From positions 1 to 64,000 of IMG/VR virus record IMGVR_UViG_3300031565_000016: a DNA stretch of 64,000 nt, one strand, 5' to 3'. This document shows positions 22,021-49,292 of this stretch, one piece after another. The notes under the pieces are model-generated. The model was not told where the DNA came from and did not search any database. It worked only from the letters and a program-made list of their open reading frames with translations. Source of the DNA: a virus. The translations under genes were made by a program, and so were the position numbers. How positions within the stretch are numbered: the stretch's first letter is position 1; the number at the start of each line of letters is the position of its first letter.

Positions 22021-22044
22021 TGGCTCTTTTTGAGCCAATTTTTA
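22021..22044. terminator. Hairpin terminator between convergent genes
   Basis: TGGCTC TTTTT GAGCCA followed by ATTTTTAT: a perfect 6-bp stem with a T-rich tail on the plus strand. It ends the plus-strand cassette and may also serve the sigma factor gene arriving from the other side. Confidence 0.75.
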
Positions 22045-22857
22045 TGCGTATAAACGGGACAAAGTAGCAATGCATTCTTTATCCCGTTTTCTAAATGGCC
22101 TTTGATATTGTAGTTCTGCAATGCCCATATTCATTAATTGCCGTATACGTTCCCTGGTTACACCATATAATTCACCAACCTGCCCCATTGTTTTTGGTAC
22201 CCCATCAGATATACCATAATAACAATCCAAGATACTTGCATACCGTTTTGTTATCCCCCCAAGCCGTTTTTTAACATAGGCCTCAATTTCTATTAATTCA
22301 ATAGCTTTATCTGGGGCATCTGTATTACTTGCCAGCTTATGATGGAGTTCTTTATCATCGCTGTCATCTTCGCTTTTTTTAATTCCGTCCAGGGACAATG
22401 TATTATCTCTAATCTCAGTATATTCCAACAGGTGCTTTGGCCAAAGTTCCTTTGGAACATCGTCATTCACCAACTTATTCATTACACGGTGTAAATTTTG
22501 TGGAATACGTATAATAGAACCAGAATCTTGTATTGTGCTTGTTATTTTTTGCCTTACCCACCATACGGCATATGTAATAAATTTGAAACCCTTATTTGTG
22601 TCAAAATTGTCACGGGCTTGTATAAGCCCAATAATTCCTATACTAATAAGATCTTCAAAAGCATATGGTGAATTCCTATAGGATAAGGCAACTTTTAGAA
22701 CAAACCGCAAATTTGCTGTAATTAGGAGGTCACCTGCTTTTTTATTCCCATTTTTGAATGCAGTAAATAGTTCATATTCCTGCTTTTTTGTTATTGGTTT
22801 TGTCTTTGCAATATCTTTCATGTATTTAACAAGCAATTCACTGTCAATTCTAACCAT
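22042..22857 (-). CDS. RNA polymerase sigma factor, primary (RpoD-like) type
   Basis: 271 residues, ATG after AGAGGG. Region 1.2-like start (ELLVKYMKDIAKTKPITKKQ), region 2 FEDLISIGIIGLIQARDNFD followed by KGFKFITYAVWWVRQKI (the WWxRQ core-binding and -10 melting segment), and region 4 TMGQVGELYGVTRERIRQLM (the -35 helix-turn-helix). This is the layout of a housekeeping-type sigma, reduced in length. It would direct host polymerase to phage promoters. A second sigma-like gene lies at 45960-46595. Confidence 0.9.
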   Translation of the reverse strand: MVRIDSELLVKYMKDIAKTKPITKKQEYELFTAFKNGNKKAGDLLITANLRFVLKVALSYRNSPYAFEDLISIGIIGLIQARDNFDTNKGFKFITYAVWWVRQKITSTIQDSGSIIRIPQNLHRVMNKLVNDDVPKELWPKHLLEYTEIRDNTLSLDGIKKSEDDSDDKELHHKLASNTDAPDKAIELIEIEAYVKKRLGGITKRYASILDCYYGISDGVPKTMGQVGELYGVTRERIRQLMNMGIAELQYQRPFRKRDKECIATLSRLYA

Positions 22858-38265: not shown

Positions 38266-38424
38266 GAGCTAGTTCCGTAGGTAATAGGCATTACTTTTAA
38301 TATACAACATTTTTGTAAAAAGGTAATACATAGGTGGGAAAAAGGTAACACTTGGCGCATTTTGTAATGGAAATACTAACAAAAACACCCCCATATTTAG
38401 GCTAAAAAACGGCATTTTTATTTC

Positions 38425-38580
38425 TTAACTTCCATTATTTCGTGCTGCTGCTGCATTACAATCTTTGTTAAATCTTACGTTTCTTCTTATTTTTCTCTCT
38501 TCACCTGAGCGCTCTTTGAATGGCTTTTGTTTGCTTACCATTCTATTGGTTGCTTTTATAATTTTATCACTATTTTTCAT
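38425..38580 (-). CDS. Small basic protein
   Basis: 51 residues from ATG at 38580, ten bases after AAGGAT. Strongly basic (NRMVSKQKPFKERSGEERKI, then RRNVRF), so nucleic-acid binding is plausible. No family recognised. Confidence 0.45.
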   Translation of the reverse strand: MKNSDKIIKATNRMVSKQKPFKERSGEERKIRRNVRFNKDCNAAAARNNGS

Positions 38581-38596
38581 TATGTTTTTATCCTTT

Positions 38597-44464: not shown

Positions 44465-44674
44465 TTAACATTCTAATTTAAATTCAGCCACGTGATTTCG
44501 TAACCATTTTAATTTTGTTATAAAGGTTGTACCAGGTATAAAAGCTATTTCTGGTATTGCAAAACCTTCCAAAACACATTTATCTCTTAACCCACGGAGT
44601 ACCATGCCTGCGTTAGCCTCATCATTAAAGTTGCCGAACCTATTTCCAAAACCTATCATGCCAATTCTTTGCAT
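44465..44674 (-). CDS. Unknown protein
   Basis: 69 residues, AAGGTGG-led ATG. MQRIGMIGFGNRFGNFNDEA, AIPEIAFIPGTTFITKLKWL. It is the first gene of the primase-helicase unit; a TATAAT element lies ~20 bp upstream. No family recognised. Confidence 0.5.
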   Translation of the reverse strand: MQRIGMIGFGNRFGNFNDEANAGMVLRGLRDKCVLEGFAIPEIAFIPGTTFITKLKWLRNHVAEFKLEC

Positions 44675-44693
44675 ACTATTACCACCTTATTGA

Positions 44694-44710
44694 TATTATT
44701 ATAAAAAGAA
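44694..44710 (-). promoter_or_regulatory. TATAAT-type promoter for the primase-helicase unit
   Basis: Minus strand CTTTTTATAATAAT at the edge of the non-coding island, about 20-35 bp before the ATG at 44674. Confidence 0.45.
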
Positions 44711-45127
44711 AAGTATGAAACTTCATAATTCTGCAATATATATGTAACTTATATACTCTAATACTTATATACTCTGATATAATATATATATATATGCCTT
44801 TTGGAAATTTTAGGTATAGCTTACCCAGACTAGTAAAAGTCTAGGCATCTGCTTCTTTTGGTGAATCCCAAGGCAAATGCTCTGTATTGATTGTGGTTTT
44901 AGCTACCACATGGCCCTTTTTACGCACTTCACAACCTACAATACAGCCCAGTAGTGGTTGCCCACTAAAACGGTGTCATTTTGGTAGTAGCACATTATTA
45001 TGCATTATTCACCCAGCAATTGGTGACCTGCACTACTCCGCAAGTATCGACGGCCTGTCTGTAACTGCTCCGCCTGGGCCATTGTTTCAAATGCATGGTG
45101 CACAATGACTCACAAAATGCATATCGA

Positions 45128-45199
45128 GCCCATTTCAGTTGCCATCACGGGTTGCAAATTGCTTAAAACTGGTATTCCGTGCCCCAGTTTCTAATGGGC
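45128..45199. other. Interleaved-stem RNA/DNA element
   Basis: Outer stem GCCCATT/AATGGGC (45128-45134 with 45193-45199) encloses CACGG (45146-45150), AAACTGG (45166-45172), CCGTG (45177-45181) and CCAGTTT (45184-45190). The two inner pairs interleave, so they form a pseudoknot or two mutually exclusive stems. Confidence 0.5.
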
Positions 45200-45292
45200 A
45201 TATAATAAACGATTATTTGCTCTTTTAATCTGAAAAAATATAGTTGATAATAAGCACAACTTTTGATCTTCACTACTACTGCCGAAAGATTA

Positions 45293-45362
45293 GGGGGGTG
45301 TAACCCCCCCATTCAGACGAAAAGTAGGCGTTTTGATTGTTGGGAGCAACTCCAACCGCCTA
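45293..45362. terminator. Two strong hairpins beside the 45401 gene
   Basis: GGGGGG TGTAA CCCCCC (45293-45309) and TAGGCG...CGCCTA (45325-45362) with an inner GTTGG-bulge-AG/CT-CCAAC stem. They lie just after the minus-strand gene ending at 45401; neither has a long T tract, so a terminator role is only possible. Confidence 0.4.
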
Positions 45363-45400
45363 TATTCAAATATACAACAATTAAATATACTTTGGTAGTA

Positions 45401-45946
45401 TTATTCACCAATAAGGTAATAATATTCTGAAGTTTTTATTTCTGTGCAATCTTCAGGCATTTCACCAAGTGAACCTATACAGGGTGAAATAAGATACCCA
45501 CCTATCATTTCTTTAATAGGGCAAGATTCCCCTATTATTTTAAATCTTGCAATTTCTGTATTAATAAAGTCTGAGCCAAGTACTGTGCGAACTTTAAACC
45601 TAGGCACTTCTTTTAACGCATTTATTTCTTTTTTTAATTCTCTGCCTAGTTTTGTTTTTAATGCAGGAACCCACATTGAATTTTTTGCATCCCACCTAAC
45701 ACTTCTTGGTACTTTTCCATAGGTAATTGCCTGTTTTTCATCTTTTATACAGTATTCACCATTTTTACTTGCAAAACGAAAACCAGCAATACCACCAGCT
45801 AAGTAATAGGAGTTGCAAATAATTTCAGTTGCCCCCATTGATTTCCCGTAATTTAGGTTTTCGTTTTTTACCAGTTTTACATGTTTTCTGAATTGTTTTA
45901 ATTTTTCAGCTGTTACACTGCCTGGTTTTGTTTTATAATACATCAT
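45401..45946 (-). CDS. Unknown protein
   Basis: 181 residues, GGGGGAACT before the ATG. Basic N-terminus (AEKLKQFRKHVKLVKNENLN), central RSVRWDAKNSMWVPALKTKL, beta C-terminus. Downstream of the sigma-like gene in the same transcript. No family recognised. Confidence 0.5.
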   Translation of the reverse strand: MMYYKTKPGSVTAEKLKQFRKHVKLVKNENLNYGKSMGATEIICNSYYLAGGIAGFRFASKNGEYCIKDEKQAITYGKVPRSVRWDAKNSMWVPALKTKLGRELKKEINALKEVPRFKVRTVLGSDFINTEIARFKIIGESCPIKEMIGGYLISPCIGSLGEMPEDCTEIKTSEYYYLIGE

Positions 45947-45959
45947 AGTTCCCCCTAAT

Positions 45960-46595
45960 TTAATTTAATTGATTATGTTTGTAACATATACCACCTGGGT
46001 CTACTGTATTGTCGAAAATTTCGTAAATGAAATCACGCAAATCAGCTAATGCTTTTTTTAAACGGCTTGAGTCCCAGCCCCATTTCGAAACTAATTCTAA
46101 TAAATTGTTATATGTCAACCGTAATTGTTTCCCCAAATTTGAAAGAAGCTGCCCAGATACAAGTTCACCATGTAATTTTTTTGCATCCACAGTCAATTCT
46201 GTGTAAAGCATGTTCATATCTAAGGTGCATGCTTCATCAAATGGCTCAAATTCAACCAACTCACTGTCACCATTTGCTGCGGTATTAAATATGGCATTAT
46301 AATCACTTTGCATTGCATGTTGCTTATTATATTTAAACAAAAAGGCTTTGTCCTGTTGTTTGTACCAGTACCTATAATTAAGCTTTTTAAGGTGTATTAC
46401 AAGGTGTGTGATAAATTTGGCACCCTTAGTACTATCATAGCAATTAAGTGCTTCAAAGAATATTAAAACACCTTCTTGCACCATGTCCTCAAAATGTTCT
46501 TCACTTGGTTTTAATTTCATAACTGCTTTTTTTATAGTGCCCATATATTTATTTATATCTTCACCATGTGTTGTTTTTATTTCTAAATTTTTCAT
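45960..46595 (-). CDS. Sigma-70-like protein (second sigma factor)
   Basis: 211 residues. Region 2 is recognisable: HFEDMVQEGVLIFFEALNCY then DSTKGAKFITHLVIHLKKLN, the helix that binds core polymerase and melts DNA. The C-terminal 60 residues (LLELVSKWGWDSSRLKKALA) could be a region 4-type helix-turn-helix. Short like ECF or phage late sigmas. It sits behind a 22-bp-spaced promoter, so it may control its own regulon. Confidence 0.7.
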   Translation of the reverse strand: MKNLEIKTTHGEDINKYMGTIKKAVMKLKPSEEHFEDMVQEGVLIFFEALNCYDSTKGAKFITHLVIHLKKLNYRYWYKQQDKAFLFKYNKQHAMQSDYNAIFNTAANGDSELVEFEPFDEACTLDMNMLYTELTVDAKKLHGELVSGQLLSNLGKQLRLTYNNLLELVSKWGWDSSRLKKALADLRDFIYEIFDNTVDPGGICYKHNQLN

Positions 46596-47808: not shown

Positions 47809-47958
47809 ATGGTTGTTTTAGTTAAATCTAAATTAGATTATCATGAAAAAGTAAAAGAACCAGAATTTAATGGTGTTAAACTAGACCCAATTTACGAAGC
47901 AAAATGTATTGAATTTATAAAAGACAATGACATTTTATGGGTAATTGGGCACAGATAG
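47809..47958 (+). CDS. Small unknown protein
   Basis: 49 residues ([20 protein letters not shown]...), first gene of the plus-strand half. No ribosome site; the ATG lies ~12 bp after a TATAAT element, so the mRNA may be leaderless. No family recognised. Confidence 0.5.
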
Positions 47959-47966
47959 GAGTAAAA

Positions 47967-49292
47967 ATGAAACAATATTTAGATTTATTGCAGCAAATAA
48001 AAGACGAAGGAAATCAAAAGGGGGACAGAACAGGTACCGGGACGATAAGCATTTTTGGTGCTCAAATGCGGTTTGATCTTTCAAAAGGGTTCCCATTGGT
48101 AACAACTAAAAAAGTGTTCCTAAAGGGAATTATACACGAGCTATTGTGGATTATTTCAGGAGATCCTAATATTAAGTACTTGCAGGATAATGGTGTTAAT
48201 ATTTGGAATGAGTGGGCTGATGAGCACGGTGATTTAGGGCCTGTATACGGCAACCGTTGGCGTAAATGGGGCAAACCTGAATCTGTTATACAAAAAAAGC
48301 CAAAACTAAGAAAAGGTGTTAAGCCCACATACCTAGGTGTAGGTAATGGGAAAGGCAAGGAAGGGCATTGGTTAGCAAAAACCTGGGAAGGTATGATGGC
48401 ACGGTGCTATGATAAAAATAGCAGTATGTATAAAAATTACGGTGGCAAAGGTGTTTCTGTTAGTGATGAATGGCTTGAGTTTATTGTGTTTGCTGAAACA
48501 GTCAAAAATATACCTGGGTATGATTTAAAAGTAAAAAACAAAAAAGCCTTTGAAGTACAGCTTGACAAAGACATAATGGGCAATGGTTTTCTCTATTCAC
48601 CTGAAACTTGTATGTGGGTAAAAGCTTCTGACAATATACTCCCAACACATGAGTATACAGTGGTAAAAAATGGGGTGGAATATAAATTTACAAAATCAGT
48701 GAAATTCTGCGAAGAACACAAAATTGAACCCAAAAACTTTTCCGACTTATGGACAGGTAACAAAAATGCTAAAAGTAGAGGTGGTTTTTCCTTTGTTTCT
48801 AAACGCTGCTTACACCCAAAAATAGATCAATTGGCAGATGCTATACATAAAATTAAAAATAATCCAAATGATCGTAGAATTGTAGTGACAGCGTGGGATC
48901 CTTCCTATATTGAAGACATGGCCTTACCCCCATGCCATATGTTTTTTCAATTTTATGTAAATGATGGAAAGTTAAGCTGCCAAATGTACCAACGCTCTGC
49001 TGATATGTTCCTTGGTGTTCCTTTTAATATTGCATCCTATGCATTATTAACAATGATGGTTGCACAAGTATGTAATTTGACACCTGGTGCATTTATTCAC
49101 ACAATTGGTGACGCTCATATTTATAATAACCATATAGAACAAATAACTGAGCAATTAACAAGGGAACCAAAAAAACTACCAACAATGAAAATAAACCCAG
49201 AAGTTACAGATATTGATAAGTTTAAATATAGTGATTTCGAATTAGTTGGGTATGAACACCACCCAGCAATAAAAGGCAAAGTTTCTGTATAA
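47967..49292 (+). CDS. thyA: Thymidylate synthase ThyA with in-frame endonuclease-like insertion
   Basis: 441 residues from ATG at 47967 after AGGAG. Residues 1-102 and 283-441 together (~261) match ordinary ThyA (264 in E. coli): [47 protein letters not shown], then [20 protein letters not shown], the catalytic [11 protein letters not shown] (Cys323), [20 protein letters not shown] and GDAHIYNNH. The ~180 residues between are foreign to ThyA. All catalytic residues survive. Makes dTMP for phage DNA synthesis if the insert is tolerated or removed. Confidence 0.9.
48273..48812 (+). other. Inserted homing-endonuclease-like segment within thyA
   Basis: About 180 in-frame codons. First module: [55 protein letters not shown], the W..M..RC..Y..YG..G..V...W and LD-N-Y-P-x-C-x-W pattern of phage HNH-like proteins. 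Second module: [33 protein letters not shown], like the small DNA-binding modules of homing endonucleases. The ends lack intein signatures (no Cys/Ser start with His-Asn end). Confidence 0.65.

Follow-up and report, generated by a model that had tools for sequence, protein, structure and literature searches.

A predicted large structured noncoding RNA between sigma-like and primase genes of a contractile-tailed phage

What does a compact phage genome keep in a long stretch that holds no credible gene? The question is raised by positions 44675–45400 of the window, by which we mean the whole stretch of DNA analysed (64,000 of the 67,904 bases of an IMG/VR virus record). The window encodes a tail sheath, tape measure, portal, capsid, terminase, primase, helicases, DNA polymerase, a processivity factor, a clamp loader, and two sigma-like proteins, and was therefore assigned to a contractile-tailed phage. 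The phage collection contains no close isolate, and every capsid and polymerase match there was below 60% identity. The island is bounded by ORFs at 44465–44674 (minus strand) and 45401–45946 (minus strand). As a sequence-only reading had stated, it lies between primase/helicase and sigma-like genes. A primase (phrog_47) and a helicase (phrog_62) lie on one side; on the other, a single gene of unknown function separates the island from the sigma-like gene, whose product is a Sigma70_r2 protein. Read on the minus strand, the upstream neighbor is a 181-aa gene, the downstream neighbor is a 69-aa gene, and a primase-helicase-methylase-DnaB operon follows on the same strand. Both sigma-factor-like proteins of the window, at 22042–22857 (minus strand) and 45960–46595 (minus strand), belong to phrog_351. 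The one beside the island matches only Sigma70 region 2 in Pfam and gave no tblastn match at E ≤ 0.01 in the phage collection.

The absence of a credible gene was confirmed. With a greedy choice of ORFs, the island is the largest uncovered stretch in the window. This choice splits it into 212 b and 292 b, with only a spurious plus-strand ORF of 73 aa in between. The true gap next in size (38266–38596), at 331 b the second largest ORF-free stretch, lies just upstream of a small-terminase-like gene. An apparent gap at 1–1686 was rejected as an ORF running off the window start. A higher G+C content had been claimed for the whole island, and this does not hold (37.6% versus 37.3% for the window); it is true of the core at 44840–45215 (44.7%), which adjoins an AT-rich flank at 44675–44840 (22.9%). 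The many stems noticed in the sequence are real. The minus-strand fold reaches −199.3 kcal/mol (z −2.5), a value that none of 20 shuffles equals, and the plus-strand fold has a z of −1.9.

Relatives were found with the capsid protein and a primase alignment; the helicase and the upstream protein missed them as single queries. The capsid search returned three records (86, 71, and 71% identity), and two of these, G001 (74 kb) and G003 (68 kb), cover the island region. A DNA search with the island gave a 77% match in G001 (E 1e-61) and a 74% match over about 166 b in G003 (E 1e-23). The element is present once in each, in the order sigma-RNA-primase. The primase homolog downstream is 73% (G001) and 65% (G003) identical, and the sigma-like homolog upstream is 54% and 48% identical. 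G001 has a homolog of the 181-aa upstream protein with 42% identity, and none was detected in G003. The 69-aa downstream gene is 57% identical in G001, and G003 has a 219-aa ORF in its place. Immediate neighbor genes thus differ in G003, and the element is kept though its neighbors change. The 392-nt core (45204–44813) is 73% identical to G001 and 62% to G003, versus 40–48% at third codon positions of the primase and sigma genes. A covariance model of the 5′ half found exactly one copy per genome in the window phage, G001, and G003, and these three are the members so far.

Searches beyond the two relatives were negative. DNA-word scans of viral and genome contigs gave only short chance matches besides G001 and G003, all of them with short and weak nhmmer and covariance-model scores, and blastn of the window island to phage and plasmid collections gave no match. 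One of these, in contig L021, lies inside a 302-aa ORF. Matches of the G001 copy to Erwinia phages (32 nt, E 0.6) were also rejected as chance. The covariance model did not find the RNA within the 21.6-kb fragment of phage L026, whose primase is 33% identical. Directly downstream of the RNA in G003, a 15-nt sequence, AAAAAGGTAACAGGT, is repeated in tandem about four times (L018:5510–5600), and this repeat is absent from the window and G001.

Covariance analysis in relatives had been set beforehand as a test, and it gave a clear yes for the minus strand. RNAalifold was run against column-shuffled alignments and gave a z of −4.2 on the unedited MAFFT alignment of the core and −8.4 on a hand alignment made with the helices in view, which is by its making biased toward structure. 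The leader alignment has a z of −6.6. Coding controls of similar length carry no signal (z −1.1 to +0.4), and for the core the minus strand outscores the plus strand. Of the cells in the 5′ half of the core, 99% are paired, and two-sided changes occur at 7 of the 33 pairs, a count that 0 of 500 shuffles reach. Slid controls of the 5′ half had zero two-sided changes in every case, a comparison in which the real structure is favored since it was partly derived from the same sequences. Across P1, the 5′ half, and H7 (Table 1), slid controls show none or one. There are 10 G-U cells and 0 A-C cells; therefore, the functional strand is the minus strand. Covariation rests on three sequences (window, G001, and G003) and was scored outside a tree. 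Taken together, the minus strand of the island very probably encodes a conserved structured RNA, and the suggestion of a regulatory RNA holds to that extent, as regards conserved structure.

Table 1. Predicted features of the island RNA, in transcript order
Feature	Position	Strand	Basis
−10-like box TATATT (G001 TATACT, G003 TATAAT), putative promoter	45369–45374	−	5–6 nt before P1 in 3/3 genomes
Stem P1, proposed RNA 5′ end	45325–45362	−	9 counted pairs, 100% paired, 3/3 genomes
G-rich hairpin P2 (GGGGGG/CCCCCC)	45293–45310	−	Hairpin at the same place in 3/3 genomes
Conserved 392-nt core	44813–45204	−	73%/62% identity, RNAalifold z
Proposed H-type pseudoknot GCCC/GGGC + AAACTG/CAGTTT	45166–45199	−	Pairs in 3/3 genomes
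Helix H2, three parts, invariant loop GGCAACTGAAA	45113–45161	−	4 pairs with two-sided changes
Helix H3	45075–45112	−	2 pairs with two-sided changes
Hairpin H4 (GGCGG/CCGTC; G003 GGGGG/CCCCC)	45049–45074	−	100% paired, 1 two-sided and 1 one-sided change
Hairpin H5	45009–45026	−	Hand alignment; weaker
Hairpin H6 (TAGTGG-GCAA-CCACTA)	44952–44967	−	Hand alignment, two-sided changes
Helix H7 (CTGTATTG/CAATACAG)	44882–44946	−	8 pairs, 100% paired, 2 two-sided changes
Short hairpin H8 (TTGG/CCAA)	44858–44871	−	Hand alignment, 2 of 3 pairs with two-sided changes
Hairpin H9 (CCTAGAC/GTCTGGG)	44824–44845	−	95% of cells paired, two-sided changes absent
Weak AT hairpin with T-run, possible transcript end	44703–44727	−	−3.1 kcal/mol

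P1 lies about 120 bases upstream of the core and has two-sided changes at 6 of 9 pairs; by cells, 0 of 500 shuffles match it. The pseudoknot at the 5′ end of the core is almost invariant, shows no two-sided covariation, and is a candidate only. H5, H6, and H8 rest on the hand alignment because MAFFT misaligned the 3′ half. The arms of H5 are TCACC/GGTGA in the window, CCCA/TGGG in G001, and TACAT/ATGTA in G003, and H6 fits G003 imperfectly. Enclosed by H7 are a hairpin (44893–44909) and an internal region of high conservation; the shuffle support of H7 is modest (52 of 500). A hairpin similar to the AT hairpin with T-run occurs in G001, and none was seen in G003.

The best explanation is that the island is the gene for a stand-alone, large structured noncoding RNA that acts in trans, with a probability of about 0.6. 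The −10-like box stands at a fixed distance from P1, which suggests a transcription start at P1 (about 45362), and the promoter would lie just past the upstream stop codon. The transcript would run through P1, the G-rich hairpin P2, a variable AT-rich linker, the core of about 390 nt, and an AT-rich tail. It would measure about 540–660 nt, with about 550 nt up to the core end and about 660 nt up to the AT hairpin with its T-run. In line with what is thought of other large phage RNAs, we infer an RNA that would act during infection as a scaffold, a decoy, or a partner of some protein or RNA of the phage or the host. Contact with such a partner may be made through the conserved loops of H2 and H4 and the inner region of H7. 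An antisense target was sought and rejected, as exact complements elsewhere in the window reach 13 nt at most, the same as for shuffled sequence. Against the trans-acting RNA, the window has no strong promoter match. A promoter scan matched at the −10-like box in G001 (GTAACA-17-TATACT) and G003 (TTGCTA-18-TATAAT) and had no match there in the window itself, and promoter-like matches are no more numerous than in shuffles. P1 and P2 could also be terminators of the upstream gene, which would leave an RNA of only core and tail. P2 is terminator-like and lacks a good T-run, and we consider this possible, if unlikely.

The main rival of a stand-alone RNA is a role in cis. The element would then be the leader of the primase-helicase-methylase-DnaB operon and would act by put-like RNA polymerase binding and terminator read-through or as a replication-timing switch. 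It lies upstream of the primase on the same strand in 3/3 genomes, and this constant position at the head of the operon is compatible with a cis role as well. The gene directly downstream differs in G003, however, and an AT hairpin with a T-run stands between the RNA and the operon in the window and G001. Phage HK022 put elements are reportedly short cis elements of about 65 nt each, whereas the island RNA is several times larger and has many helices. HK022 putRNA, a structured phage RNA heading an early operon, nevertheless offers a phage precedent (PMC9378689). On balance, a cis-acting leader is judged rather improbable.

A further rival is a replication origin, as had been proposed, or a single-strand initiation site, with the structured strand working as DNA or primer RNA; an origin gained no positive support. 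In favor of this rival, the island sits near primase and helicase genes, and the AT-rich stretch lies beside the core. The GC skew turns near 47–48 kb, where gene direction flips, and not at the island, in a test that is confounded by gene direction. A search for iterons found no array and one 16-nt pair only, and the G-U cells without A-C cells favor an RNA of one strand. An origin is judged very unlikely. The last proposal was a decayed protein gene, and the window does contain a 45-codon open stretch (44841–44975). Its codons sit within kept RNA helices, all six frames of the core are broken in the window, G001, and G003, and the DNA is conserved rather than decaying. No frame is kept in relatives; the stretch is therefore neither a gene nor a remnant, and a decayed gene is hardly conceivable.

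The predicted RNA was compared with known RNAs. At the gathering threshold, Rfam gave no match in the island, G001, or G003. At a relaxed threshold, nothing credible was found, and GOLLD, ROOL, and OLE were not among the matches of any of the three members. Group I and group II introns, RNase P, tmRNA, and HEARO had no Rfam match, and ARAGORN detected no tRNA or tmRNA in the window. By the covariance-model test, the RNA is not a GOLLD or ROOL member. It has the features of the general kind, a large structured phage noncoding RNA of several hundred nt with no ORF and a conserved complex fold. It is best read as belonging to the general kind of GOLLD, ROOL, and the ICP1 RNA, with no detectable relation to them.

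In vitro, GOLLD and ROOL assemble into RNA nanocages; no function is known for either (PMC12286853). ROOL, with an example of 659 nt, is highly structured, encoded by phages or prophages, and has proposed pseudoknots (PMC12286853). The island RNA resembles it in being large, highly structured, and phage-encoded with a proposed pseudoknot, but has no Rfam ROOL match in 3/3 members and no tRNA in the window. GOLLD is likewise a large structured phage RNA, often above 800 nt and near tRNAs (PMC12286853), but has no Rfam match here, and the island has no tRNA neighbors, a proximity that is frequent and not obligatory in GOLLD and ROOL. The ICP1 noncoding RNA is about 800 nt, lies between gp139 and gp140, and is the most abundant transcript of that phage (PMC7567579). 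Both are large predicted noncoding RNAs in an ORF-less space, ICP1 is a lytic phage without tRNAs, and no tRNA was detected in the window. The ICP1 RNA is located by the lysis cluster and was seen by RNA-seq, whereas the island RNA is predicted from sequence alone. Sequence relation to the ICP1 RNA was compared only by blastn of the phage collection, with no match. Abundant lncRNAs are also described in phage K (PMC9241854).

The island RNA appears to represent a new family with its own fold. To our knowledge, no more than a handful of large structured RNAs have been described in phages, and the class is poorly understood. A bolder reading would make it a new RNA class, unrelated in sequence to known ones, with a higher-order architecture of its own, either as an RNA-only assembly or as a ribozyme-like machine, and a direct role in phage replication or host take-over; this is a long shot. 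The RNA lacks the usual tRNA setting and lies between a sigma-like gene and replication genes, a placement that gives the testable hypothesis of a tie to the timing of replication or transcription. As this case shows, an unusually large gap without ORFs in a compact phage genome can expose an unlisted RNA family.

The thymidylate synthase (ThyA) of the window, at 47937–49292 (plus strand), carries an in-frame HNH-endonuclease-like insertion of about 170 residues (about 120–290). Pfam reports no intein domain and Rfam no group I intron. The ThyA frames of G001 and G003 are about 275–280 aa long and have no HNH-like insertion.
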